Assembly: GCF_020782235.1 (NCBI RefSeq)
Contig: NZ_JAJGNO010000005.1
Location: 1-64,000 of the forward strand
Direction of reading: 5' to 3'
From: Sphingobium naphthae
GTDB lineage: Bacteria > Pseudomonadota > Alphaproteobacteria > Sphingomonadales > Sphingomonadaceae
Length of the DNA: 64,000 nt
Positions 39,589 through 60,013 of the stretch are shown here, piece after piece. The position numbers were made by a program, and so were the translations under genes. Within the stretch, counting starts at the first letter, position 1. Each line of letters begins with the position of its first letter. A model generated the notes under the pieces. The model did no database searches and had not been told where the DNA came from. It saw only the letters and a list, made by a program, of their open reading frames with translations.

Positions 39589-39801
39589 AACCTCGAGAAC
39601 CTGATCATCCAGATCGGGGCGGTGCCAAAAGCTGATCCCTTTGCTAGCTCGAGGCATTAATATCTGGATAAAATTATGCCGCACCCACATATGTAGAGGG
39701 CGGTGACAAACCAGTCCAATGGAACGCCAGCGATTTGCTGAGCGTGGCGGTTTAAAAACCAGCCATTGGATAGGTTGCTCCTTTTTAGGGGGGTGGCCGG
39801 G

Positions 39802-41301
39802 ATGTTTGCCGTGGAGAGCTACGCCGCCGTTCGGCACTTTGTTTTTGTTGAAGGTAACAGCCGACGCGAGGCCGCGAAGGTCTTTGGACTGAGCCGCGAG
39901 ACGATATCAAAGATGTGCCGGTTTTCTCTGCCGCCCGGCTACACGCGGACTAAGCCTGTGGCGAAGCCGAAGTTGGGACCGCTGCTGCCAGTGATTGACG
40001 CGATCCTGGCAGCGGATCGCATTGCGCCTGTGAAGCAGCGGCACAGCGCCAAACGGATTTTTGAACGTCTGCGCGACGAGCATGGCTTTGGCGGTGGCTA
40101 CACTGTCGTAAAAGATTATGTCCGGCTGTGCCGGGCGCGTGGACGCGAGACGTTCGTGCCGCTGGCGCACCCGCCAGGACATGCTCAGGTAGATTTTGGC
40201 GAAGCGGTGGGCGTGATCGATGGTGTCCGTCGGAAGATACACTTTTTCTGCATGGACCTGCCGCAATCGGATGCCTGCTTTGTGAAGGCCTATCCAGCGG
40301 AGACAACCGAGGCGTTTCTAGACGGGCATGTATCAGCGTTCGCCTTCTTCGGCGGTGTGCCGCTGTCGATCCTTTACGATAACACGAAGATCGCGGTTGC
40401 CAGGATCTGCGGGGATGGGAAGCGCGAGCGGACACGCGCCTTCACTGGGCTTGTCAGCCATTACCTTTTCAACGATCGCTTTGGTCGGCCTGGAAAGGGG
40501 AACGATAAGGGGAAGGTCGAAGGCTTGGTCAAGCACGCTCGATCGCACTTCATGGTGCCGATCCCACATGCGCCCAGCTTCGATGCCTTCAATGATGAGC
40601 TGTTGGGTCGCTGCCGGGCCCGTCAGGAAGAGCGGGCTGGCCGACATAGCGAGACGATCGGCGCACGGCTCCTGGCCGATCTGGCGGTGATGCGGGCATT
40701 GCCAGCAGGGCAGTTCGAGCCGTGCGAGACCAAGGCTGCTCGCGTATCGTCGACCGCCCTGGTGCGCTACCGGACCAACGACTACTCAGTGCCAACCCGG
40801 TACGGCTTCCAGAATGTCATTGTGAAGGGCTTCGTCGACACGGTGGTCATCCTTTGTGGCAATGAGGAGATCGCCAGACATCCGCGCTGTTATGGTGAGG
40901 CCATGTTCGTGGCGAACCCGCTGCATTATCTGGCGCTGATCGAGACCAAGCCCAATGCGCTCGATCAGGCCGCCGCGCTGCAGGACTGGGCCCTTCCGCA
41001 AGCGTTCCAGCATATGCGTCACCTCCTTGATGCGCGCATGGGCAACAAGGGCAAGCGCGAGTTCATCCAGATCCTGCGCCTGTTGGAGGCAATACCGATA
41101 GAGGTCGTCACCTTCGCGGTGAACGAGGCGATCTGTATCGGCGCAATCGGCTTTGATGCGGTCAAGCAGATCGCGCTGGCGCGCATCGAGCGGCGGCCCG
41201 CCCGCCTGGACCTGACAGCCTATCCCCACCTGCCGAAAATGGACGTGAAGACGACGCGTGCCGCGGACTATGCCGCGCTCGTGCCGGGGATGGCGGCATG
41301 A
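39802..41301 (+). CDS. istA: IS21-family transposase IstA
   Basis: The DDE-type transposase acts with the ATPase IstB. Residues 12-40 form a helix-turn-helix (EGNSRREAAKVFGLSRETIS). The catalytic triad is Asp in GHAQVDFGEA, Asp in SILYDNTK and Glu in DKGKVEGLVK. Start ATG at 39802 (MFAVESYAAVRHFVF) follows the AGGGGGG run; the frame is open from 39766. The 499-aa length is normal, and the stop overlaps the istB start as ATGA. Appears intact. Confidence 0.92.
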   Translation: MFAVESYAAVRHFVFVEGNSRREAAKVFGLSRETISKMCRFSLPPGYTRTKPVAKPKLGPLLPVIDAILAADRIAPVKQRHSAKRIFERLRDEHGFGGGYTVVKDYVRLCRARGRETFVPLAHPPGHAQVDFGEAVGVIDGVRRKIHFFCMDLPQSDACFVKAYPAETTEAFLDGHVSAFAFFGGVPLSILYDNTKIAVARICGDGKRERTRAFTGLVSHYLFNDRFGRPGKGNDKGKVEGLVKHARSHFMVPIPHAPSFDAFNDELLGRCRARQEERAGRHSETIGARLLADLAVMRALPAGQFEPCETKAARVSSTALVRYRTNDYSVPTRYGFQNVIVKGFVDTVVILCGNEEIARHPRCYGEAMFVANPLHYLALIETKPNALDQAAALQDWALPQAFQHMRHLLDARMGNKGKREFIQILRLLEAIPIEVVTFAVNEAICIGAIGFDAVKQIALARIERRPARLDLTAYPHLPKMDVKTTRAADYAALVPGMAA

Positions 41302-45911: not shown

Positions 45912-47014
45912 TCAGGCCGTTATCTTGGCTAATGGATAGTCGCTGTAGCCGGCTTCGCCACCGCCAAACAGGGTTGCAGGGTCAGGCTCGGCCAATGCGA
46001 TCCCCTTCTCAAGTCGGGTTACAAGATCGGGATTGGCAATGAACGGGCGGCCGAACGCAACAAGATCTGCAAAACCATGCTCGATGACCCACTCGGCTTT
46101 GGCAATGTCGTATTGGCCTGCAACACGATGGGGCCGATAAAGCGCCCGCGGACCTCGGCGCGGAACTCTTCGGTGAATTCGGGCGCGTCGTCCCAGTCGG
46201 CTTCAACCAGATGCAGGTAGGCGATCTTGGCTTCCTGGAGGAATTTGGCTGCTTCAAGAACTGTCGGGAGGATATCCGGGCAGTCCATGCCGCGCGCGGT
46301 GAGGAAGGGGGCAAGGCGAATGGCAGTCCGATCAGCTCCGATTTCTTCGGCTATGGCGGTGACGACCTCGCGAAGGAAGCGCAGGCGATTTTGGCGGGAA
46401 CCCCCATATTCATCCGTCCGCCGGTTTGATCCGGTCCGCAGGAACTGGTCGATCAGGTATCCGTTGGCGCCATGGATCTCGACGCCGTCGAAACCAGCCT
46501 CTCGGGCATTTCGCGCCGCGGTCCGATAATCATCGACAATCTGCGCAATCTCAGGCTGTTCAAGCGCGCGCGGCGTTGGGCAAGGAACCATTCCACCTTC
46601 ACCGGTGGCCGGATCGACCTTCCAGATGTCGCCCTCGAAGGGGATGGCTGAGGGCGCAACCGGGAGCTCGCCGCCGTGAAAATCTGGGTGCGACATGCGG
46701 CCGACATGCCAAAGCTGGATGAAGATCCGGCCGCCGCCGGCGTGAACGGCGTCCGTGACAAGCTTCCACCCAGCGACCTGCTCCGCGCTGCAGATGCCCG
46801 GAGTGAAGGAGTATCCCTTGCCTTGAGGGGAGATCTGCGATGCTTCGGTGATGATGAGGGCGGCATCGGCACGCTGCGCGTAATAGGCAGCATTCATGGC
46901 ATTGGGAATATCGCCCGGCTGGCTGCTGCGCGCTCGTGTCATGGGAGCCATCACGATCCGGTGTTCCACTTCGCGGCCCGCGAATGTTGTTGGTGTGAAC
47001 AGAAGCGAAGACAT
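45912..47014 (-). pseudogene. Old yellow enzyme (NADH:flavin oxidoreductase), frameshifted
   Basis: The N-terminal 290 residues are a normal OYE: MAPMTRARSSQPGDIPNAMN, IFIQLWHVGRMSHP, and GFDGVEIHGANGYLIDQFLR with the catalytic His/Asn region. After RFIGPIV, near 46121-46126, the frame slips. The true C-terminus continues in the next frame (GQYDIAKAEWVIEHGFADLV, then AFGRPFIANPDLVTRLEKGI) to TGA at 45912. The span of 1103 bases is one short of a whole number of codons, so a single base is missing. The original reading frame stops early at 46019, losing flavin-binding residues. Confidence 0.85.
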
Positions 47015-47116
47015 GCCGAGTATCCTTGTGATTTGTCGGTGTCTAACTAGGCTCTATATCTGCGGTAGAGTATGCGCCGATAATCGAACACACCCTCCAC
47101 CATTGGGAAAGTATCC

Positions 47117-48027
47117 GTGCTGAATGACATCAACGAGCTGCGAACATTCGTCAGAATTGCGACCGATGGCAGCCTCTCGTCAGCAGCCCGATCAATGGGG
47201 CTTGCCCTTAGCGTGGTAAGCAAGCGTCTCGCGGCACTCGAACGGCGAACGGCTACCCGTCTGATCGTACGGAGCACGCGCCGATTCTCGCTTACCGATG
47301 AAGGCAGCAAATTGTTCGAACGCGCGCTGCGGATCCTTGCCGAAATAGGCGAGGCCGAGGCGATGCTGGGGAACGGAAAGCTCGAACCACAAGGATTGCT
47401 GCGGGTAAGCGCGCCTGTTGCGTTGGGACGAAAACATGTCGCCCCGGTTTGCCGTGATCTCGCCCGCCTTTATCCTTCGCTCACCATCGATCTTGTGTTG
47501 ACCGATCGCGTTACAGGCCTCATAGATGAGGGGCTGGACGTCGTTATTCGTATCGGCGAACCGAAGGATTTCGACCTTGTCGTTCGCAAGCTTGCGGACA
47601 ACCACCGTGTGGTTGTGGCTTCTCCCGCTTATCTGGAAGAACATGGTGCTCCAATGGACCCCCATGAGCTCGCCGCTCACGAGTGCCTTCATCAGGGCGC
47701 TGGCACCGTCTGGTCGCTTCATGGCCCCGGAGGGCGCTCGGTCCATGTCGAGGTGAGTTCACGCCTGCGATGCAACAATGGCGAGATTTGGCACTTGACG
47801 GCTTTGGACTCGCAATGAAATCCTGGATTGATGTCGCGGCTGATATTCGCTCGGGCCGCTTTGTTCAGATACTCCCGGAGTGGCACAGCCCGCCCATGCT
47901 AATCTGCGCGGTATTGCCAAGTCGCACTCTCATACCATCTAGAGTGAGGGTTTTCATCGATGCGGTGACGGAAAGGTTGCGTGAGTTTGGCCAAGCGGCC
48001 GGGGACAACCCTATCGCTATTGCTTGA
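47117..48027 (+). pseudogene. LysR-family regulator, frameshifted
   Basis: The helix-turn-helix (ELRTFVRIATDGSLSSAARS then MGLALSVVSKRLAALERRTA) and most of the effector domain are intact. After SSRLRCNNGE near 47780-47785 the frame ends at 47818. The family-typical continuation RDLALDGFGLAMKSWIDVAA then DIRSGRFVQILPEWHS is in another frame and ends at 48027. A small deletion explains this. The gene is divergent from the old-yellow-enzyme gene, the usual regulator-target arrangement, and both members are broken. Confidence 0.85.
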
Positions 48028-48169
48028 TGATCGGCGTCAATGCTGACCAGATCGGAGTAGGTGTCTCACTTGCTTCCGTTCATCCCTCCGATCGGCTTGG
48101 CGATCTGTGCGTACGGATTAGGGCACCAACAGCGTTGAATCTGAAGCAGCGATCTCATAGCGTCACAGC

Positions 48170-48415
48170 ATGGAGTTTGGCCCGTACCCCGAACTGATCG
48201 AATCCTCTCTCTGCAGGTCCGTCGAGCAGGCCGGCGTACGGCTGAGGGTAAACATCGTCCGTCTTGTCACCGAGCGGAGTTGGTCGCTTGAGGTGGTCAA
48301 CGAGTACGGCGCTTCCACGGTCTGGGACGAGCTCTTCCCCACCGATCGCGATGCCGACGCTGCGTTCTGCGCTGTGCTCGCTCAAGAAGGCGTCGAGGCC
48401 TTCCTAGGCAAATAG
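48170..48415 (+). CDS. Small conserved-looking hypothetical protein
   Basis: An 81-aa soluble acidic protein (MEFGPYPELIESSLCRSVEQ ... WSLEVVNEYGASTVWDELFP). The alternation of beta-like and helical parts and the clean composition suggest a real gene, but no family is recognised. It lies between the broken LysR gene and a divergent-strand small gene. Confidence 0.5.
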   Translation: MEFGPYPELIESSLCRSVEQAGVRLRVNIVRLVTERSWSLEVVNEYGASTVWDELFPTDRDADAAFCAVLAQEGVEAFLGK

Positions 48416-48474
48416 ATGCCAACTCCTGCAGGGAAAATCTGGCATAAGCTCAGCCAATTCGATCCCTGTCCGGC

Positions 48475-48684
48475 CTAGCTTTCGCTAGCCTCCGCAGTCC
48501 CACTTTCCAACCCGTTGATGACCATAGCGGCCAATGTCTCTTCGGCACGCACACGTGCAACCGCATCCTTGGAGGCCAGGTCATGGCGTACCCATTGCGG
48601 GACGCGGGAAATGACGCGAGAGACCAGCGCTTTTTGTTCTTGATCCATGAAGCTGGCTATGATGCTGCGCGTCAGCAGGTGCAA
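48475..48684 (-). CDS. Small hypothetical protein, DUF6771-like
   Basis: A 69-aa protein. The core ISRVPQWVRHDLASKDAVAR then VRAEETLAAMV resembles the short sphingomonad family I recall as DUF6771, where a xxPxWVRxxLxSKD pattern precedes an Ala-rich helix. The assignment is from memory and weak. A shorter start at M13 (MDQEQKALVSRVI) is possible. Function unknown. Confidence 0.5.
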   Translation of the reverse strand: MHLLTRSIIASFMDQEQKALVSRVISRVPQWVRHDLASKDAVARVRAEETLAAMVINGLESGTAEASES

Positions 48685-48891
48685 TATGTTATGTGTGGGG
48701 GATGAGATAATGGCAGATGACGCGTTCGTCCCGGCGCGGCTGCAGTTGCATCAGGAGGGGAGGGGCAATGGCTCGATGGCCGGGTGCCTCGGTCCGTCAT
48801 GTTTGTTTCTTTGACGCGCTTGCATGTCACGCCCTGCTTCGGCGCAACCTTGATTTCGGTTGGCCATGCTCAGTTCCGGCGTCATGCGGCC

Positions 48892-49881
48892 TCAAGGGCA
48901 GCGGGCGCCAATGCCCGAACGCCCGGGAGGCAGTGGATTTTTCTGCAGGAAAATTCGCAATTCATGATGTTCCTGGAGGTTGGAACGTAGATTCTTGACG
49001 GACCGCTTGTGTAAAGTTGCCAACTCTTGCCAGCTCAAATTCTCGCCTTCTTTTTGATCCAGAAGCGCTGACATTTCCTTCCACCGTCGCGCGGCCTTGG
49101 CCAGCCTTGCCGCATAGGCAGACCGAGCGGTGCGAAGATGATTTTTCTCCGGTATGAACAATATCGCCCGTTCCCTCAGCCTATGGCCATATTCCTCCAT
49201 CACGAAAAAGAGTTCCAGGAGGGACGCGCGCGAGAAATTAGGAATCTGCAAAAGTTCTTCCACCGGAATTCTTGCTACGTCGCTCAGAAGCGGACCATTT
49301 TCTCCAGTCTCGTCGGCGAAGTTTCGCCATGCAAAGCGCAGTGAATTATAACATCGAGCAGAAAGCCGTTCCCAACGCCGCAGGAGATGAATGCTGGGGT
49401 TCGCGACCGCGTCCTGTGATCTTGGGGCCTCCATCATTGCCCTTCTCTGCAGCAATAATTCGATCATGGGCAGGATGTCGGACGTGGCGGTGTTCGATAA
49501 AACCGTCTCGAGCCGCCTCAAAAGTGGCGGGCTGAACGCGACGAGCTGCTCGACCCCTTGGAGTTCATCTTCTGGAGATTGAGCGCCTGGGCCGCTCACT
49601 CGTTCTGCATTTTCGATGACGCCCTCCGCTATGTTTGAACGGAGGACCTTGAGGCTGGACGCAGGAAGTGCCGACGTCTGGCCGCCAGTCCTCTCCGCTT
49701 TACCATCTGTGGCCCGAGGCAGTCGGGTTCTCAAATCATGCCTGAAAAGCGCCACAGCACAAGCGTCTTGCAAGGATAATCTTGGCGGGACAATCCTGGG
49801 CTCCGAGGCCCCCTGGTCGCAATCCCTTTCATAAAAGATCGAGACTGACCCAGCCCAATCGGAGGTCCTGTCGTTCGACAC
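48892..49881 (-). CDS. Protein with an RNA-polymerase alpha-CTD-like domain
   Basis: A 329-aa soluble protein. Residues 172-236 (LSARCYNSLRFAWRNF ... VARIPVEELLQIPNFSRASL, then LELFFVMEEYG) follow the alpha C-terminal-domain pattern of RpoA: LSxRxxNxL, an ELLxxPNxxxxSL turn, and an ExxxVMxxxG ending. The remainder is helical and unrecognised. The GTG start lies 27 bases after the preceding WHGKI-type gene, so it is the fourth gene of the DUF262-ATPase cluster. A DNA- or RNAP-binding role is inferred. Confidence 0.6.
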   Translation of the reverse strand: MSNDRTSDWAGSVSIFYERDCDQGASEPRIVPPRLSLQDACAVALFRHDLRTRLPRATDGKAERTGGQTSALPASSLKVLRSNIAEGVIENAERVSGPGAQSPEDELQGVEQLVAFSPPLLRRLETVLSNTATSDILPMIELLLQRRAMMEAPRSQDAVANPSIHLLRRWERLSARCYNSLRFAWRNFADETGENGPLLSDVARIPVEELLQIPNFSRASLLELFFVMEEYGHRLRERAILFIPEKNHLRTARSAYAARLAKAARRWKEMSALLDQKEGENLSWQELATLHKRSVKNLRSNLQEHHELRIFLQKNPLPPGRSGIGARCP

Positions 49882-49908
49882 AATGATTGCCTCGCGCTTT
49901 GCCGCTCT

Positions 49909-50871
49909 TCACTTCTTCGTGATTTTTGGTCCCAGATAGAGAATCGGCAGCCGCCGCCTGTCCGGGGCCATAGGCCATTCGAAATGCATTCGGAAAAAAC
50001 GGTGACTTATCTTGCCATGCCAAGGCGCGAACACCTCGCGTCCGTCGGATGCGGTGAAGGTCATCTCATCTTCGAACTTATCTTCGTTGGTCGGGGACTC
50101 CCCCGTGAAATAAGCGCGGTCGCCTTTGAAATGCGCGTCGATAACCTCTTTGGAAGCAGGTCCTTCGGCACCCTTCTCGTCGCGCCCCGCCATATAGGCG
50201 TTAAGCAGCGCCATGAGCGCCAGCGCTCGATCGCGGATGGAGGCCTCGAAGGGCTCGCGCGCGAGCTGGGAATTTGTGTGAAGATCGGCAATATCAAGAT
50301 GAGGAAAGCGGGCACGCGCTGCCTCCACAAGGGCCGCCCAGGATGTTATCGAAGGCCCGCTCGCGACGGCCTGTTCAACCATCATTTGTGCGATCCAGTG
50401 GTTACGCACGTCATAGCGGCCATAGCGTTCCTCTGGAATGCCATGATCGATCTCCAGGGGATCGCGGGCAAAATCCACAGGCCCGCCCGCGAAGCTATAG
50501 GTAGCACATGTTTCGCCGGCCTTTGTACGGCGGGCAGCCTCTCCTAGGCCGGTCGAGGTGACTTCAACATCATTATACTCAAAATAGTCGTCCTGCTCCG
50601 CCAACCTGTCGTCATCGACGAACGGCCCGGTACGATCGAACCAGTTGAAAGTTGCCGATCGCAAGTCACGGTCGCGGCATCGCTGCAGGAGCTGGCGGAC
50701 GGACATTCCGGGTCCAGCCAACGCGTCCTGCAGCGATCGGGTCGATCGAAGGTTCTGCTTGATCAGCGGCACGCGAGCGCGGACACCCAGCAATTCCCGC
50801 AATATTTCCTCGAACTGCGCCGGATCGGCAAATTGCCCCTGCAAGGAAGCGTCGTTCAGATACCAGCGCAT
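49909..50871 (-). CDS. Uncharacterised protein with C-terminal WHGKI...HFEWP motif
   Basis: A 320-aa protein immediately after the ATPase gene, no spacer. The C-terminus APWHGKISHRFFRMHFEWP, then LPILYLGPKITKK, is a conserved ending seen in unnamed proteins next to restriction or abortive-infection ATPases. A central EIDHGIPEERYGRYDVRNHW has spaced D-H, R and N-H residues that loosely recall an HNH-type nuclease core, but this is not convincing. No membrane helix. It is probably the effector or a structural partner of the ATPase; function is not established. Confidence 0.6.
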   Translation of the reverse strand: MRWYLNDASLQGQFADPAQFEEILRELLGVRARVPLIKQNLRSTRSLQDALAGPGMSVRQLLQRCRDRDLRSATFNWFDRTGPFVDDDRLAEQDDYFEYNDVEVTSTGLGEAARRTKAGETCATYSFAGGPVDFARDPLEIDHGIPEERYGRYDVRNHWIAQMMVEQAVASGPSITSWAALVEAARARFPHLDIADLHTNSQLAREPFEASIRDRALALMALLNAYMAGRDEKGAEGPASKEVIDAHFKGDRAYFTGESPTNEDKFEDEMTFTASDGREVFAPWHGKISHRFFRMHFEWPMAPDRRRLPILYLGPKITKK

Positions 50872-51981
50872 TCAATCCCACCCGGCCAGTCTCGAGACAT
50901 CCTTGTCATTCTGGTCGAAAAAGCCGTCGGGCCATTCGTCAATTCGCCCTTCCTTGTCGATACGGGGGGCCGACACCCCATGCCCTTCCGGCGTGGAGCC
51001 CGAGAAGAAGAGAAGGCTCAAGTCGGTGGACTTGATGACACCATCCCGGACTGCGAGCCGAGCGCCGTTCAGAACATGATCGCTATGGGTTTCGATGAGT
51101 AGTTGCACGCCCGCAGCCGCGAAAGTGGCAAGCATGCTTCCCATGCGAGATTGCGCTTGCGGATGGAGATGGGCTTCCGGACTGTCGATGACCAGTATAT
51201 CGCCTGGCTGGGCAGCGAGCAAAGCTACTAGGATCGGAAAGGCGTAGGTGAGGCCATATCCGACATTGGCAGGGCGCCGCCATTCTCCGGTGTCGGACAG
51301 ACGAAACTGCAGCGCCAGTGACGATGCGACGGGCAGTGCCTGCACATTCGCATTGGCCCCTGGAGCCAGTCGGTCAAGCCATGCGTCAACCTGCCGGCGG
51401 AATGTCGTGCCGCTTTCTCCCTGGACGCATCGCTCGGGCGGGACCTCTGTGTCGGCCAGCGTGTGGTACCAGTAACTGGCGAAACGGCCATCAACGCCCA
51501 CGTCCGCGACCTGGCTGATGCTGCGATCGGGGATGGGGAAGGTGTCCGATGGACCGCCACGGACCGCACTGATATGGACTAGCCTGTTCAGGCGCGTAGC
51601 CAGTTCTAAGTCCTCATCGCCCTGCGCCAGGTCCCGTGCCCGTAACGCGCGCTCACCTGCGCGCGCGGAGACCCCGATTGCCAGACTGTGCGATCCCGCG
51701 CCGATGAAAAAACGGGTATCTCCGCTGTAACCAGCACGGATCACGTCGCCTGCAGAACCCAGGCGCACCATGTCTCCATTAAGCGGCAACTCGCCTTCAA
51801 GGCTTTCTGCTCCCCAGATGCGAAGCCGTGCTGCTTGGGCAAGCAGCAGAAGCGGCTGAAGTGCGGTGGATTTGCCTGCGCCGTTGAAGCCGGTGAAAAG
51901 GGTGAGGGGAGCCAAAGGTACCCGCAGGCGCTCAAAGCATTTATAGCCTTCCAGCTCGAGAAATTCCAACATGTCCGTCAT
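50872..51981 (-). CDS. AAA ATPase of the SMC/RecF-like type (DUF3696 family)
   Basis: A 369-aa ABC-type ATPase. Walker A is TLFTGFNGAGKSTALQ (about 28-43), the signature-like region is GYGLTYAFPILVALL, and Walker B is DILVIDSPEAHLHPQAQ, followed by the D-loop and switch His in IETHSDHVLNG. The ending GRIDEWPDGFFDQNDKD is the DUF3696 signature. Such ATPases pair with nucleases or other effectors in defence systems. Its stop touches the next gene, and its start overlaps the DUF262 gene by four bases. Confidence 0.87.
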   Translation of the reverse strand: MTDMLEFLELEGYKCFERLRVPLAPLTLFTGFNGAGKSTALQPLLLLAQAARLRIWGAESLEGELPLNGDMVRLGSAGDVIRAGYSGDTRFFIGAGSHSLAIGVSARAGERALRARDLAQGDEDLELATRLNRLVHISAVRGGPSDTFPIPDRSISQVADVGVDGRFASYWYHTLADTEVPPERCVQGESGTTFRRQVDAWLDRLAPGANANVQALPVASSLALQFRLSDTGEWRRPANVGYGLTYAFPILVALLAAQPGDILVIDSPEAHLHPQAQSRMGSMLATFAAAGVQLLIETHSDHVLNGARLAVRDGVIKSTDLSLLFFSGSTPEGHGVSAPRIDKEGRIDEWPDGFFDQNDKDVSRLAGWD

Positions 51982-53117
51982 CCCTGAAATGGCTCCAGTG
52001 CGACCTCTAACGTTGAAAAGCGCTTTCTGACAGCTTGGGTGCTGTTTGTTGAATAGGTGATGGATCTTGCGAAATCCTCGTCAGTGACAAGGTCCTCGAT
52101 CACTGCCCGCAGTGCATCATGCGCGGTATCGGGCAGGGAATGTGCCAGACGGGCCAGAACGACCGCGCTCACCTCAAACAAAGAGATGTTGATGACGCTG
52201 CGCGCCGCATATGCATCTTCGGATGCCAGCGATTTGCGGAAGGCATGAGGACCGAACAGCAAGGTACTAAGAGACATGGCGGCGTCGAAACTCGCTCGGA
52301 GGCTCGCGCGATCTTCTTCACTCAGTTCGGCAAGTCGCTTCAGCCCTTGCGCCAGAAAGCTGTCCATGTCTCCTGCGGTATAGCTTTCCCAGCCAAGGAG
52401 AGAGAAGGCGCAAAAGCGGTTGATTGCTTCCCGGTCGCGCATCGCCCTGCTGTCCAGCGATCCTCCCGTCGCCGTCTGGAAGGGATCGCCTTCCGCGGCC
52501 TGCTTGAGCCATTGCGTAGCAGGACCGTTATACAGGGCATTACGCATCTGCTGCCTGGTGAGTTGGGCACCACTGTTTACCCGCTCGAAAATGTCCAGAC
52601 GGGCGCGCTCGGGGGCTTTGGCATCGAGGATGTACATGGTGAGCTGCGTATCGGCGACGCGCTCCTGCAGGTTGAGCGGAAGCGTCTCGTAGGTTTGTCC
52701 TTCTAGTGCATGTGATCCTTTATGCTGCGCACTTACGAGGCCAGTGAGCTTGAGGTCACCGCCAAGGAAGCGCGCGAAAGTCGTCAGCCTCTGCAGGCCA
52801 TCTACCACGATGATCCGACCGTCGGGCGCCTCGGCGACATAGAAAACCGGAAGCGGGATCCGCATGACGCAGCTCTCGATCAGCTTGGATTGCTTCGGGT
52901 TCGACCAGACGAAATCACGCTGGAAATCAGGATCAAGGACGTACCGGTTCTTCTGGATGCGGGCCACCACCTCCCCTACGGTGCGTTGTTCGGTCCGCAC
53001 GAAAACGGCGTCTAGCGGATAGTCACCCCATCCATCGCCAGTTTCGGTGTCGACGCCCTCGATAAGCTCGTTGTTCGAGCCTGTGGCGCTTTTGGCCTCT
53101 TCGGGCGTCGTCGACAT
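51978..53117 (-). CDS. DUF262 (ParB/Srx-fold) protein
   Basis: A 379-aa protein. The DUF262 motifs are clear: VLDPDFQRDFVWSNPKQSKL (about 60-79), IPLPVFYV, and VVDGLQRLTTFARFL (105-118), which carries the D-G-x-Q-R catalytic signature of the ParB/sulfiredoxin nucleotide-hydrolase fold. The GmrS half of GmrSD uses the same domain. The DUF1524/HNH half is absent here. First gene of the minus-strand cluster, overlapping the ATPase start as ATGA. Confidence 0.88.
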   Translation of the reverse strand: MSTTPEEAKSATGSNNELIEGVDTETGDGWGDYPLDAVFVRTEQRTVGEVVARIQKNRYVLDPDFQRDFVWSNPKQSKLIESCVMRIPLPVFYVAEAPDGRIIVVDGLQRLTTFARFLGGDLKLTGLVSAQHKGSHALEGQTYETLPLNLQERVADTQLTMYILDAKAPERARLDIFERVNSGAQLTRQQMRNALYNGPATQWLKQAAEGDPFQTATGGSLDSRAMRDREAINRFCAFSLLGWESYTAGDMDSFLAQGLKRLAELSEEDRASLRASFDAAMSLSTLLFGPHAFRKSLASEDAYAARSVINISLFEVSAVVLARLAHSLPDTAHDALRAVIEDLVTDEDFARSITYSTNSTQAVRKRFSTLEVALEPFQG

Positions 53118-53242
53118 TCAATCACTCCATATGCAACGGGGAGGACACCCCATTGATTCGCAACATCAGCACGTCGGCACGCTGACCCAGCCTGTCAACA
53201 TCCGCAAGTCAGTTGCCGACGTAAGCCGCTGTCATGCTGGTT

Positions 53243-54199
53243 TCATTTGTCGTTTGAAATGGCAGCAGCCTCCAACAAATCTATCCTTTCTTTGCAGATT
53301 GTAAGAACAACTTGCCCAAGCTGTTCAACTCGCTCGCCAAGCCAGCGCAGTTCCTCTTCACTGATCTTGTAATGTTTGGAATAGCGAGCTTTAACATAAG
53401 CTTCCTTGAGCTTTTCAAATTTCGCTCGGTCAGCGCGAGAATCCGACGGCCAAACATCTCGAACGCGAATGTCGAGACTTTCTGCTTTCTTCCGGAGAAA
53501 CTCTAAATTGTGGACGTGTGGGGTGTAGAATGTGCATACCAAAAGTACGCAATGGTAAAGACGTTCTGTGGACTGATGGAGCTGAAAGGCTGAGTTTTTA
53601 AACCTTCCGTTGGACAGAGTGAATTCAAAATTAGCATAGAATTCACCAGCGCTGCTGTACCATTCCTCAAAATATTCGCGAGCCATATCGACCGATTGTT
53701 TCGGCGTCTTAGGCCTTGGTTTGTGTAACTCGCGATCATCCGATTGGTAGAGCGCGATTCCTTCCTTCGCGATATCCATAAAGAAATACCGGCCATGGGC
53801 CAGCGCATCGTTCACTTCCTGCAGAGTGTGCACGATGAAATTTACCGGCGTTCGAAGCGCGTGTGTGATGCCATATTCCCGGATCAACCGATCATTGGCC
53901 TTGTGCCAATATGCGACTGTGTCGGTCAGTTCATTCTGATCAACGATGATCAAAAGATCGTAGTCTGACTGATACCCTTTGGCAGTATATGGCTCATCCA
54001 CCCAGCGATCGCTGGTATAGCTTCCGTACAGAACGATCTTCAGGATGCGACCATCCTTGGTCTTCCCTGTCGCGTTCTTCGTGGCGTCCTCAAACTCCTC
54101 AAACAGCAGGCGCACGACCCGCTCAAGCTCACGCTGCTTTTGTGGAGGCAAATGATCAAGGTCGGTTCGCACAGTTTCGTCGTTCCAATACGCTGCCAC
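53243..54199 (-). CDS. One-chain MNT nucleotidyltransferase-HEPN protein
   Basis: A 318-aa fusion. The N-terminal minimal nucleotidyltransferase has the G-S motif in KIVLYGSYTSDRW (G59-S60) and the metal-binding SDYDLLIIVD (78-87). The C-terminal HEPN domain (about 180-315) contains HQSTERLYHCVLLVCTFY and LKEAYVKARYSKHYKIS. MNT and HEPN usually form a two-gene toxin-antitoxin pair in which the MNT AMPylates the HEPN RNase; here they are joined. It is more AT-rich than neighbours. It lies 126 bases upstream of the DUF262 gene. Confidence 0.85.
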   Translation of the reverse strand: MAAYWNDETVRTDLDHLPPQKQRELERVVRLLFEEFEDATKNATGKTKDGRILKIVLYGSYTSDRWVDEPYTAKGYQSDYDLLIIVDQNELTDTVAYWHKANDRLIREYGITHALRTPVNFIVHTLQEVNDALAHGRYFFMDIAKEGIALYQSDDRELHKPRPKTPKQSVDMAREYFEEWYSSAGEFYANFEFTLSNGRFKNSAFQLHQSTERLYHCVLLVCTFYTPHVHNLEFLRKKAESLDIRVRDVWPSDSRADRAKFEKLKEAYVKARYSKHYKISEEELRWLGERVEQLGQVVLTICKERIDLLEAAAISNDK

Positions 54200-54358
54200 T
54201 TATCCAGCCAGGAAACAGCTGGCTTTCTGACATTTGAATTCTAAGTCATTGGTAGCGCAGGGGCAATTGGAACGCGAACGAAACTGCTGTCAAAACGCTG
54301 CTAATTTATTTTCGCGCTGAGCAGGCAGTCCGGTATGATGCCCTGACGGAGGCTCGCC

Positions 54359-54772
54359 ATGTCAGACATGTTAGGAAAAACGGAAGGGCGGTTACCTGAA
54401 CGGCTGCCAATCTCAACCTATATCTGGAAGCCTTGGTATGCGAAGGTATATTGGACGCTGACGCCATCTATATGGTTCGTCGGTGCCGACTGGGTGCGCG
54501 ATCTGCCAGAGTGGTTGCGCTTCTTTGTCGTCGTGGTATCGCTGTTCACGACCCCTCCGGTAGCGTTTTTAGTACTTGCCTTCCCTTGGCTCGAGAAACT
54601 TATCCACGATCCGAGCCGGAAGTGGGAAGAGCAGCACTTGGTCAGACCGGCGCAATACCCTTTTGAACGTGGACCATTGGGACTGTGTCCTTCAGCTGAT
54701 CCACTCGATCCACGAGCAGGCATTCATTGGCAATTTGATTCGAATAATCCGATAAGCCCGTTTCATAAATGA
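54359..54772 (+). CDS. Small membrane protein, hypothetical
   Basis: A 137-aa protein with one or two hydrophobic segments at about 53-82 (LRFFVVVVSLFTTPPVAFLVLAFPWL) and Trp-rich flanks (IWKPWYAKVYWTLTPSIWFV). It ends in a hydrophilic Pro-rich tail. No family recognised. It is convergent with traG (14 bases between stops) and divergent from the MNT-HEPN gene. Confidence 0.5.
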   Translation: MSDMLGKTEGRLPERLPISTYIWKPWYAKVYWTLTPSIWFVGADWVRDLPEWLRFFVVVVSLFTTPPVAFLVLAFPWLEKLIHDPSRKWEEQHLVRPAQYPFERGPLGLCPSADPLDPRAGIHWQFDSNNPISPFHK

Positions 54773-54786
54773 TCCCGTAATTCAGA

Positions 54787-57700
54787 CTAATCTGGCCTTT
54801 GGCCGTCGCCGATACCAGATGAGCTGTCGAGAAGGGAGCGCCCCGTTTGTAGTAATGCCTCCTGCTCCCGAGAAGTTAGGGGAGATAGGGCATCTATCGT
54901 GCTGCGGCCGGCTGCCGCATCTCGGAGATATTTGATCCTCAGCCCATCGGATCCCATTATCTCGTTGCTTAGATGCTCGGTAAAAGTTTGGGCCGGATCG
55001 CGTGCGTGTGCTGCCTTTTGCCCAGCTGCCGTCAACGATGATCGTACCTGATAATTTACTATGTCGAGCTTGGCGCTGGCAGATTCACTCATTGAAGTTG
55101 AATCGCTCGACGACATACCGATATTTCCCCCAGCTGTTCCAAGTTGCTGCCGATCATCGCCGGGGTGCTTCTCGCTAGAAGCAGAGTTGCTGGTGGCGCC
55201 AATCTGTAGTCCAGCGTCAAATCTCAACGATGTATGGTCCTGTGCTCCCCGGTCAATTGCTCTCGACCAACCCGTCTGCGCAATAATGGCACCTATATCG
55301 CGCTGAAGCGTGTCCGCGACCTGTGGTTTAAGACGCCAAGCGCCCCTTCGATCCATCTCGAAACCGCCACGTAGCCAGTCGGCCATTGCCTTCTGGCCTT
55401 CCACGCCTCCGCTCATGAAATGCTCGATCGTGTCGGGCCCCGCCTGCTTGCCAGCTTCGAAGCGCGTGCTCGTATCATTCTGTCCTGCCTTCTCATATTG
55501 CGTTCGGCTCGAGACGAGCAGGTCGTTATGGGCGAAGCTGAAGCGCGCATGCCCGCCATTGGCGATCGCGCCCAACTGACTATCGTTGATCAAACCGGCC
55601 CGCCACAATTGCGATGCCGTGTCGGGGGTCAGGTTCAGGCCGAAATCGCCATTCTGGTCCATGGCTATCTCGCGCTTGCCAAGTTCGATGCCGTGCGCCC
55701 GCAGGAGCCCCTGAACGCGGCTCAGCCGCTCTTTATCAACGATGCTGGTCAATCGGGAATTCCGCGCACGATCCGCAATCCCGTCTGACCCGCCTTCAGC
55801 CATGTCCACCTGATTGCCTGCAGTTTGAGATAGTGCCTGGATGAAGCTGTCCAGACGAGCTGCCTCTCTTGTGGACGCTCCGGCGGCCGCTGCGCCTTGC
55901 GCGAAGCCGAATTGCTCCGACTGACGCCTTTGTTCTCCGATATGGGAGGCGGCCCGAGTTCCATCATGACCGACCTCCCGCTGCGCATCGAGTTTTCCTG
56001 ATCGCTCGGCAAAGTCAAATCCGGCCGCTTCCCGGGTTCGACCGTAAACGGATACACCCTCCCTGGCGGCCTCCGCAGTGGCACCATCTGCAGTCCCAAC
56101 ATCGGTCGCAGCACGATAGCGAGCGAGAGCTCCCTCAATCTGGGCTTCGTTGCGCCCGGTGCTCCTTGCAAGTTGGGAGATCGCGGTTGATCGCGCTTCG
56201 CCCGACAAGGCGTCGATGAAGCCAATTCGCCGGGAGGTTTCGTCGACCGAAAGGCCCAACATCGCGGCGGCCTCCCGCTGCCCGCTATTGGTGCCAGTCC
56301 GCCGAGCCTGCTCGGTGGCGACGTTGCTCCTCTCTGTGCGAGCGACAGCGTCGCCCGCATAATCGCGCCGGCCTTCCATAGCGCCGACTTGCACCTGCGC
56401 GCCGGTCAAATCATTGCGCAGCATGCTCTCCTCGTCATAGCTGTTGGCGATCAGCTTCGCGAAGGTGGGATCGTTCGATGCCTGCGCCACCAAACCGCTG
56501 GCCTTGAGTTCGGCGTCGGCGGGAGAGTAGCCTGAACGCTCGAAATGGCGAGCGGCAGCCTGCATCATCATACCATAGGCGCGGTTATCGCCAAACGCCT
56601 TCCACTGAACAAGATTTTGCGAGAAGGCTGCAAAGGCGCTTTCACCTGCCTGTCCCTCGCCAAAATAGCCAGTTCCAAGCGAACGAAGAGCATCCTTCTC
56701 GGCAAAGTTGTGGATGGCGCCGGTCGTGGCAGCAGCCTGCACTTCCCGCGCCACCGCCGGATCGGAAAGGCTGCGGCCGGAGAGGGCAGGGGCGACATTG
56801 CCGATATCTCGCCCGCCATCGGCCTGACCCATCCCAAATGCGGCACTGTTTGCTATTCCGCCGCCTTCGCCGATAATTTTGTCGGCGGCGCCGAAGCTGC
56901 GATTGGCGCCGAAGCTGCTCCGCTCGCCAAAGTCGCCAAATCCCGATGAGGCAGCGCGCCGCGCGCCCGTTCCTGCAGCGCTGGCCTGCGCCTCGAGTGC
57001 CGAGGCATAGCCTTCCGACGTCGTCATCGTCGCTCCGGCGCCGGCCGCCTGGGTCTGGACTGCAAGGCTTCCTCCCGTAAGGCCTGAAAATACGTTGCCC
57101 GAGAAGCGGAACACGGTGAACACGAATGCGCTGGCAAGCGCTGCCGATGCCGAGCGGAAAGTACCGAAAATCGCCAGCGCCTTCATCGCGGAGGACGGGG
57201 CCAGGATCCAGGCGTTGGCCGCCACATGGAAGGAACGCATTTCAGCGAGCGCGTCCATCGCGCGGCCAAGAGTGAGCTGATAGAGGCCAGCGTCGATCAC
57301 ACCCCAAAGCGCCACGAAGACGAAGAGGCCCAGCGCAAAGCTTGCGACCCGCAGATTGATGGGGGTGAGGATGAACAGGAGGGCTACCGGCATCATGAAG
57401 AGCATGATGCCGAACACGGTCGCGCGGATCGTCGGCATCCATTCATTCGCAGTCGAGAGCGTAGAGAGACCGCTCGAAACAACCGCGCGGTTCGCCATGA
57501 CCCTCGCCGCGGCAGCCGGGCTGTCCTCGAAAAGTACGTCGCCCACGCTCGTCCCCAGCAATATGTCGGTAAGGAAGGCCTGCATGGACATCGGGCTGTC
57601 CATCATCATGGATCCGAGCGCACCAAGGTTGGCACGGCATCGGGTAAGCTGGGTCGCGTCTTGTGTGGCATAGCCGCTCGAGGCACATAGGCGCTGGCTA

Positions 57701-58497
57701 TATTCCTCGAAGACATCGGGCTGGTTCAGCCTGTCAGCTATGTGCTGCCAGGATTGTTCGCAACTCACTGTTGTTCCTGCCTTGTCCGACGCCGTGAAGA
57801 TCGTGCTGAAGGTCGACGGGCCCGCCATAGCTGCGAAGGCGGCGGGAAGGTCGGTCGCAGTCCGGAACAACTGGTCATCGTCAACGCCATAGGCAGGTGA
57901 AACCCGTGCTACCGGGTAGCATTGGCGGACATAATCCTTGATCGTGGCGTCGAGGAAACTGTCGGTCATGGGGCCGCGCGGGGATACTGCATTCAGAAAA
58001 AGATCAAAGGCGTGGCCGCCGGCGCCGAACTCAAGCTTTGCGTTCGGATCGAGGGTCGCATCATCGATCGTTTCGGAAAGCGCCCGCTCCATCATGTTGG
58101 TGACGCCCGCCACCAGCACGATGAGATTGGGTACATCGCCGACCGGCTGATAGGCGTTGCGAACCCGGTCATAGACATGAACGGTTCCCGTCGTTCCGAC
58201 GAGCCCAACGAAGAGGCCTATCCCCACCAGCATCTGAAAGCCGAAGGTGACGATGCCCATGCCGGTACCCCGGATCGCGGCAAGAGCCGCCCCGATCGCC
58301 ATGCCTGCAACCGCAATGATGACGACCAGGGTGCCGTAACGCGGGTCGCCAAAAATCATGGAGACCAGCTGGAAGGCGCTCACCGTTTCAGAGAAACCGT
58401 CATAGCTATGGAAGCTCGTCTCGAGCGCCAGGGCCGGGCGCGCATGCAAACCCAGGAGCAGCGCAGGAAAAAGCGAAAGCTGCTGGCGCTGTGCCAT
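54787..58497 (-). CDS. traG: Conjugal transfer protein TraG, F type
   Basis: A 1236-aa protein of the F-type mating-pair-stabilisation apparatus. The N-terminal 490 residues are hydrophobic: helices near 50-110 and a group at about 370-480 with FGIMLFMMPVALLFILTPIN, matching the TraG N-terminal domain. Residues 500-1236 are a long Ala/Gly/Ser-rich, partly coiled-coil periplasmic region with many charged residues. TraG and TraN stabilise mating pairs and TraG acts in entry exclusion. Last gene of the transfer cluster in transcription order, 11 bases after traH. Confidence 0.88.
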   Translation of the reverse strand: MAQRQQLSLFPALLLGLHARPALALETSFHSYDGFSETVSAFQLVSMIFGDPRYGTLVVIIAVAGMAIGAALAAIRGTGMGIVTFGFQMLVGIGLFVGLVGTTGTVHVYDRVRNAYQPVGDVPNLIVLVAGVTNMMERALSETIDDATLDPNAKLEFGAGGHAFDLFLNAVSPRGPMTDSFLDATIKDYVRQCYPVARVSPAYGVDDDQLFRTATDLPAAFAAMAGPSTFSTIFTASDKAGTTVSCEQSWQHIADRLNQPDVFEEYSQRLCASSGYATQDATQLTRCRANLGALGSMMMDSPMSMQAFLTDILLGTSVGDVLFEDSPAAAARVMANRAVVSSGLSTLSTANEWMPTIRATVFGIMLFMMPVALLFILTPINLRVASFALGLFVFVALWGVIDAGLYQLTLGRAMDALAEMRSFHVAANAWILAPSSAMKALAIFGTFRSASAALASAFVFTVFRFSGNVFSGLTGGSLAVQTQAAGAGATMTTSEGYASALEAQASAAGTGARRAASSGFGDFGERSSFGANRSFGAADKIIGEGGGIANSAAFGMGQADGGRDIGNVAPALSGRSLSDPAVAREVQAAATTGAIHNFAEKDALRSLGTGYFGEGQAGESAFAAFSQNLVQWKAFGDNRAYGMMMQAAARHFERSGYSPADAELKASGLVAQASNDPTFAKLIANSYDEESMLRNDLTGAQVQVGAMEGRRDYAGDAVARTERSNVATEQARRTGTNSGQREAAAMLGLSVDETSRRIGFIDALSGEARSTAISQLARSTGRNEAQIEGALARYRAATDVGTADGATAEAAREGVSVYGRTREAAGFDFAERSGKLDAQREVGHDGTRAASHIGEQRRQSEQFGFAQGAAAAGASTREAARLDSFIQALSQTAGNQVDMAEGGSDGIADRARNSRLTSIVDKERLSRVQGLLRAHGIELGKREIAMDQNGDFGLNLTPDTASQLWRAGLINDSQLGAIANGGHARFSFAHNDLLVSSRTQYEKAGQNDTSTRFEAGKQAGPDTIEHFMSGGVEGQKAMADWLRGGFEMDRRGAWRLKPQVADTLQRDIGAIIAQTGWSRAIDRGAQDHTSLRFDAGLQIGATSNSASSEKHPGDDRQQLGTAGGNIGMSSSDSTSMSESASAKLDIVNYQVRSSLTAAGQKAAHARDPAQTFTEHLSNEIMGSDGLRIKYLRDAAAGRSTIDALSPLTSREQEALLQTGRSLLDSSSGIGDGQRPD

Positions 58498-58508
58498 GAG
58501 ATCGCCTC

Positions 58509-59960
58509 CTATCGGTTGCGGTTTGCCGCAGTGCCGGCGGCCTCGCGGGCATCCCTGTCGCGCTGCCTCAGCAGGCCTGCATAGCTGGTCGAGAGTTGGG
58601 CCTGGGACAGGGCTGCCATATAGGACTGGCGCATCTGCGAGCGCTGGCGCTGCACTTCATCGCGCAAATCCCTGAGCTGATCGATCCCCTTGCTCAGGAT
58701 ACGTGTCTGGCAGATTTGCGCGCTCCCAGCGTCCGCGGCCCCGGCGGCACTGGTCCCGCGCTCGGCATTTGTGAGCGTGAAATCTATCCCTCGGCTGAGA
58801 TCACTCAGCATCTGATAGGCAAGCGTCAGGGCGACCAGTTCGTCCGTATCGGAGATGACAGAGTCCACCATATCCTGCCTCACGCCCCATTCGAGAAGCC
58901 GGTAGACCGGAAGCGTGCGTACATTGGCCACGAACTGGCGCTCCTCGGGCGTGAGCGCCGTGCGCCCCTTGATCCTGGTCGCAATCGCGATCATGCGCTC
59001 GCGCGCAAGTTCAAGTGCGCCCTTGCCACCGTCTGGCGTGCAGTCGGATACAGTGGCGGGGATGGCGAGGGCCCGTTGCATGACCCGGCCGGACAGAAAA
59101 TCGTCGGGCGTATCGCCGTCTTGCCGGGCGCATGCAGGAATGGCAGAGAAGAGGGGGACCTTGTCCTCGTCATTCCAGCGCATGTAGACGTCGCCGACCC
59201 GCGCGCGCATCACCGCCGCCCAGTCAGCCGCGCCAACCCTGCCGGCCGCATGCGAAAGCAGGCTTCCCGTGCGGAAAATGTCGGTTACCTCCGCCGGACA
59301 GTTTGCCAGTGCATCCTTGAGATCCTCGGTTGGATTATTCTGGTTGGCCTGGATCTTCTCCCGGCTCTGCTGATAGCTTTTTGAAAAGCCCTGGCTTACC
59401 GATTTGGAGCCCGTCATTTCCTCGATGATACCCGACATATTGTCATCGCCCCTGGCGATCTGGACCATCCGGTTGGCGAGCCTGCAATCATTGACCTGAA
59501 TGGAATTGAGGTAATTGGTGGCTGCCTCCATTTTCGAAACGATGTTCCCCATCTTTTCATCGAGCGTTTCGAGAAGATACTGGAAGGCGACTGCAGGGGC
59601 GGCCTGAAGAATGCTTTCAAGCTTCTGGACGAGATAGTCCGGATCAAGAAAGGACATGCCACCAAGGAACATGTCGATCCCGCCGCAGCCTGCTTTCACT
59701 TTGGGAAGGGTGAGACTGGTGAGATAATCATTGTTAAGGTCCACGCGAGCAGAGAGACCCCCAGCGGTCACATATCCACGCGTCTGGTCCTCGAAACTGC
59801 CAGGGCTCGTATAAGTGACATTGTCGAACCAGTGCTCGGCCCAGCTCTGGGCCTGCGCTGGCGCAGCCATGATGCCGCAACTTGCAAGGGTGAAGAGGAG
59901 AAGGAAGGCCAGATGCCGGGCAACAGGCATCACGGCTGGGGAAGGGACGGGAAAGCGCAT
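58509..59960 (-). CDS. traH: Conjugal transfer protein TraH, F type
   Basis: A pilus-assembly protein located in the periplasm. It has a signal peptide (FLLLFTLASCGIMAAPAQAQ) and the TraH pattern GGLSARVDLNNDYLTSLTLP, KVKAGCGGIDMFLGGMSFLD, and a central NDCRLANRM, with several cysteines expected to form disulfides. The start at 59960 (MRFPVPSPAVMPVARH) follows GGAGG; the longer frame begins four codons earlier. 483 aa. The transfer thiol-redox proteins TraF and TrbB upstream are the likely folding helpers. Confidence 0.9.
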   Translation of the reverse strand: MRFPVPSPAVMPVARHLAFLLLFTLASCGIMAAPAQAQSWAEHWFDNVTYTSPGSFEDQTRGYVTAGGLSARVDLNNDYLTSLTLPKVKAGCGGIDMFLGGMSFLDPDYLVQKLESILQAAPAVAFQYLLETLDEKMGNIVSKMEAATNYLNSIQVNDCRLANRMVQIARGDDNMSGIIEEMTGSKSVSQGFSKSYQQSREKIQANQNNPTEDLKDALANCPAEVTDIFRTGSLLSHAAGRVGAADWAAVMRARVGDVYMRWNDEDKVPLFSAIPACARQDGDTPDDFLSGRVMQRALAIPATVSDCTPDGGKGALELARERMIAIATRIKGRTALTPEERQFVANVRTLPVYRLLEWGVRQDMVDSVISDTDELVALTLAYQMLSDLSRGIDFTLTNAERGTSAAGAADAGSAQICQTRILSKGIDQLRDLRDEVQRQRSQMRQSYMAALSQAQLSTSYAGLLRQRDRDAREAAGTAANRNR

Positions 59961-60013
59961 GGCGGCCTCCATGAATGATGCAGGAAATGCGGAGTTGATG
60001 AGCCCGCCATTGC

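Follow-up and report, generated by a model that had tools for sequence, protein, structure and literature searches.

The window analyzed here, 64,000 nucleotides of contig NZ_JAJGNO010000005.1 of Sphingobium naphthae, very probably carries a complete Menshen anti-phage system, nsnABC, encoded by three minus-strand genes (49909-53117) in the order sensor, transducer, effector. The names NsnA, NsnB and NsnC belong to the Menshen system, which was reportedly described by Millman et al. in 2022. The original prediction for this region, made from the letters alone, had grouped these genes with a fourth as a candidate new defense system. Its reading of a defense operon is borne out, and the system is a known one. 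The hidden Markov model search that it proposed identified families for genes 1-3 and also showed these three to be already described as Menshen, since their proteins match the PADLOC models for NsnA, NsnB and NsnC.

The nsnABC genes and their products

The region at 48892-53117 holds four minus-strand open reading frames (ORFs) of 379, 369, 320 and 329 amino acids, and their coordinates confirm the tight spacing noted earlier. The nsnA and nsnB genes overlap by 4 bases, nsnB and nsnC abut, and gene 4 starts 27 bases past nsnC.

NsnA (51978-53117, minus strand, 379 residues) matches the PADLOC model PDLC03877 over residues 34-373 (1.7e-113) and the Pfam family GmrSD_N/DUF262 (PF03235, 2.8e-22), in line with the DUF262 protein first proposed for this position, and is probably the sensor. 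The motif VVDGLQR lies at residues 104-110, and DGLQR is invariant in the 11 aligned NsnA sequences (the window and 10 of 13 genome loci, without L006, L007 and L010). Pfam did not find a DUF1524 nuclease domain in NsnA, and the search of solved structures gave no match.

NsnB (50872-51981, minus strand, 369 residues) is an OLD/RecF-type ABC ATPase with a C-terminal DUF3696, as anticipated for the second gene, and is probably the transducer. It matches the PADLOC model PDLC03878 over residues 4-367 (2.5e-97, among the best 25 of 131 PADLOC matches), and its Pfam matches include AAA_21 (2.7e-20), AAA_15 and DUF3696 (1.2e-12). The closest solved structure is the OLD-family protein 6p74 (7.4e-9), over residues 4-46. 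Toprim is absent among the nine Pfam families matched by NsnB at E<=1, and was not found at this threshold in any of genes 1-4; NsnB was therefore rejected as a nuclease. The PADLOC profile is matched end to end (positions 1-344 of 345), suggesting that Toprim may not define Menshen.

NsnC (49909-50871, minus strand, 320 residues) contains the motifs WHGKI...FRMHFEWP...YLGPK and is probably the effector, a role already given to this protein, then unnamed, and still plausible. It matches the PADLOC model PDLC03896 over residues 1-320 (3.4e-110) and has no Pfam family. The AlphaFold2 model has a predicted local distance difference test score of 93.7, and its closest structural neighbors by VIA-align are toxins of the RelE superfamily. 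The C-terminal part, about residues 189-320, gives a weakly supported RelE/YoeB-like fold, and the N-terminal domain is alpha/beta with a weak PIN-like match. Lys, Arg and His are invariant in the possible RelE-like domain. The locus alignments comprise the same 10 genome loci as for NsnA, together with L021, L024, L028, L029 and the window, and the family alignment has 86 rows, including the window protein, from 379 relatives (the best 120 of 379 listed).

PF05016 is not among the families at E<=0.1 for the 86 NsnC members, an hhalign comparison of the NsnC profile with 28 ORFs of ParE-type loci stayed under 1%, and no sequence-profile similarity of the C-terminus to the RelE/ParE superfamily was found. 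The comparison of the profile with PIN proteins found nothing, and the viral structure library gave 0/132 matches at E<=0.001. The search of solved structures returned no match for the NsnC sequence and, for the profile, one chain at chance level (E 0.69). No description of NsnC was found in the excerpts of the Menshen/Nsn literature, and a literature search found no paper on DUF262 together with DUF3696.

Conservation of the operon

By sequence comparison, the conserved unit is three genes. The nsnABC genes stand in A-B-C order at 19 other loci, of which some are near-identical, and this recurrence puts the three-gene unit far beyond chance. Co-occurrence, which the original prediction proposed to count, is seen for nsnABC but not for gene 4, which was found at 0/19. 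When genome contigs were scanned with the NsnC alignment, 14 loci were found, 13 of them with the NsnA-NsnB-NsnC order; NsnC is split across two frames at L007, and the remaining locus (L014) has a C-terminal piece of NsnC only. An NsnC match occurs in 7 of 397 genomes drawn from the host family, one of them the host itself, and five of the six others show the A-B-C order. Two of these five loci had already been counted, and the sixth (L025) matches weakly and has an internal stop. The order is also kept in all three plasmids examined, of 245 with an NsnA match. L014 and L025 are outside the count of 19, as are L001, L016 and L019, which are the window itself, while L020 and L022 coincide with L002 and L004, and each of these places enters the count a single time. 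The pairs L005/L006 and L008/L010 have identical scores and may each be the same island, but are counted singly. The flank covered at L021, L023 and L024 is about 1.5 kb and includes NsnA only in part.

Gene 4

Gene 4 (48892-49881, minus strand, 329 residues) is probably a bystander, a separate sphingomonad protein of DNA-binding type downstream of the operon. Its C-terminal half resembles the alpha-CTD, with a match to RNA_pol_A_CTD (PF03118, E 0.0012) that is below the cut-off (18.9 bits vs 23.8). Its tail reads as helix-turn-helix-like, and its N-terminal part is without relatives. The frame opens with GTG, preceded by a possible ribosome-binding GAGG, and has other in-frame starts inside; with these and a 235-residue version in the protein set, the N-terminus is uncertain. 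Its matches among solved structures were eS10 chains, with E values no lower than 0.11. In the protein set, gene 4 retrieved only itself (best 8000 candidates scored), and a two-sequence profile retrieved three more proteins of 169-193 residues, two with sphingomonad names, which have the alpha-CTD-like stretch and the apparent helix-turn-helix-like tail in common.

A phmmer search of ORFs from the loci compared found gene 4 at none of the 19 other loci, only in the window copies and as one relative at L017. A profile that added four relatives, run over 2083 ORFs of at least 60 amino acids, likewise found only L016 and L019 (the window) and L017. The surrounding DNA examined at L017 has no Nsn genes. 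Elsewhere, gene 4 has a single match in 60 other relatives (E 4.3e-9) and a single partial match in 396 other genomes of the host family (E 9e-4, up to five candidates scored per genome), neither with Nsn genes in the surrounding DNA examined. Gene 4 was not found at the other Menshen loci, and its proposed membership in the system is unsupported.

Proposed mechanism and alternative explanations

It is very improbable that these genes form a new, unnamed system, as originally proposed. In its favor is only that no Pfam family passes the cut-off for gene 3 or gene 4. Genes 1-3 give full-length matches to the NsnA, NsnB and NsnC models, and the loci compared show no linkage of gene 4 to them; the new four-gene system was rejected. 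A four-gene Menshen variant, in which gene 4 is a lineage-specific part such as an operon regulator or a sensor of RNA polymerase in infection, is unlikely, if less so. The shared strand, the 27-base spacing, the possible GAGG before the GTG and the alpha-CTD resemblance would suit it, but neither phmmer nor the family profile found gene 4 at the 19 other loci, and its matches elsewhere have no Nsn genes in the DNA examined around them.

In the preferred account of Menshen, NsnA, as an NTP (nucleoside triphosphate)-binding DUF262 protein, would recognize phage nucleic acid or a nucleotide cue, and NsnB, an ABC ATPase of the OLD/DUF3696 type with no Toprim match in Pfam, would relay the signal. 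NsnC would act as the effector, probably a ribonuclease (RNase) with a RelE/YoeB-fold C-terminal domain, and would halt translation in the infected cell, with an abortive outcome. There is about an even chance that NsnC is a RelE-type RNase. A more specific and much more tentative proposal is that the NsnC of this Menshen branch cuts RNA as an effector of two domains, PIN-like at the N-terminus and RelE-like at the C-terminus. In it, WHGKI...FRxHFEWP...GPK would form a variant of the RelE active site, and the DUF262/ABC-ATPase pair, not antitoxin loss, would switch the effector on. Support for the NsnC fold is weak, and one point fits the preferred account less well: the Toprim domain that excerpts of a review ascribe to one Menshen component (PMC10952713) is not found here by Pfam. 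According to the same excerpts, Menshen pairs a DUF262 gene with a nuclease predicted to be of OLD type, and resistance is lost when the DUF262 gene is mutated or deleted. It is also possible, though rather unlikely, that NsnC is not an RNase but cuts DNA or serves as a binding partner, and that the damage comes from NsnA or the ATPase, in a GmrSD-like or OLD-type manner. The weak fold evidence leaves room for this, and according to the review excerpts (PMC10952713) the DUF262 proteins of GmrSD, BrxU and SspE act with a DUF1524 nuclease domain, the activity of BrxU and SspE being NTP-dependent. However, neither NsnA nor NsnB has a recognized nuclease domain, since Pfam finds no DUF1524 or Toprim in them, and the nearest structures to NsnC are RelE-superfamily toxins.

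Comparison with known systems

The operon agrees with Menshen in all three PADLOC models and in the gene order of the 19 other loci; gene 4 directly behind nsnC is not shared, and no other difference was seen except the missing Toprim. PARIS (AriA/AriB) likewise pairs an ABC ATPase of OLD type with an effector that is a protein of its own, as far as excerpts of one article show (PMC12839542), and NsnB scores with the AriA model (1.8e-20). Genes 1, 3 and 4, however, have no AriB match and include no AriB-like Toprim protein, and a DUF262 protein is added. GmrSD, BrxU and SspE share the DUF262 protein, but the combination of DUF262 with a DUF1524 nuclease expected of GmrSD-type restriction was not found: Pfam gives GmrSD_N only, with no DUF1524 in genes 1-4. 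PD-T4-2 also has a DUF262 protein, NsnA scoring with PD-T4-2_A (2.7e-29), and according to the review excerpts it too is without DUF1524 (PMC10952713). The RelE/YoeB/HigB toxins may resemble the C-terminal part of NsnC in fold, judging by VIA-align, but no sequence similarity to them was found and NsnC has a large N-terminal domain joined to this part.

Genomic neighborhood

An MNT-HEPN fusion gene (53243-54199, minus strand) lies upstream of the operon and outside Menshen. Its HEPN match (PF05168, 3.6e-8) is above the Pfam cut-off and its match to the nucleotidyltransferase domain Polbeta (0.00046) below. The original prediction placed this gene in the same defense island; it is present, but none of the 19 other Menshen loci gave a match to it, and it was rejected as a further part of the system. 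Its G+C content is low (0.488 vs 0.624 for the window), perhaps reflecting separate acquisition.

Beyond the MNT-HEPN gene are TraG and TraH genes (54787-59972), and the operon adjoins an F-type conjugation cluster, as the earlier mention of a conjugative element had it. The same traG/traH pair occurs, with 73% identity over 4.6 kb, on pDC02, a plasmid of Rhizorhabdus wittichii DC-6, which has no DNA similarity to window positions 46001-60000 beyond this pair. Because other genes adjoin the pair in pDC02, Menshen appears to be variable cargo beside the conjugation cluster. A 137-residue ORF (54359-54772, plus strand) has a weak counterpart beside pDC02 traG (25% identity, 2e-7) and may mark the edge of the cluster.

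On the other side of the operon, a LysR-type regulator (47117-48027, plus strand) looks like a broken gene, with one frame ending at 47818 and another (47683-48027) continuing. About 48076-48435 there is short similarity to sphingomonad plasmid DNA annotated as hypothetical protein or IS66 transposase, and a small ORF (48475-48684, minus strand) has a DUF6771 match just below the cut-off. Farther away, an ORF at 39766-41301 (plus strand) has a Mu-transposase C-terminal domain.

Conclusions

Li et al. in 2025 are said to have treated the domain polymorphism of Menshen, with NsnA, NsnB and NsnC as sensor, transducer and polymorphic effector, and the effector reading of NsnC may already be in print there. 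The analysis removes one candidate new system from the list and, at the level of the loci compared, shows which genes among the four form a unit. The point of some interest that remains is the effector fold of NsnC, where the invariant Lys, Arg and His offer concrete residues for mutation.
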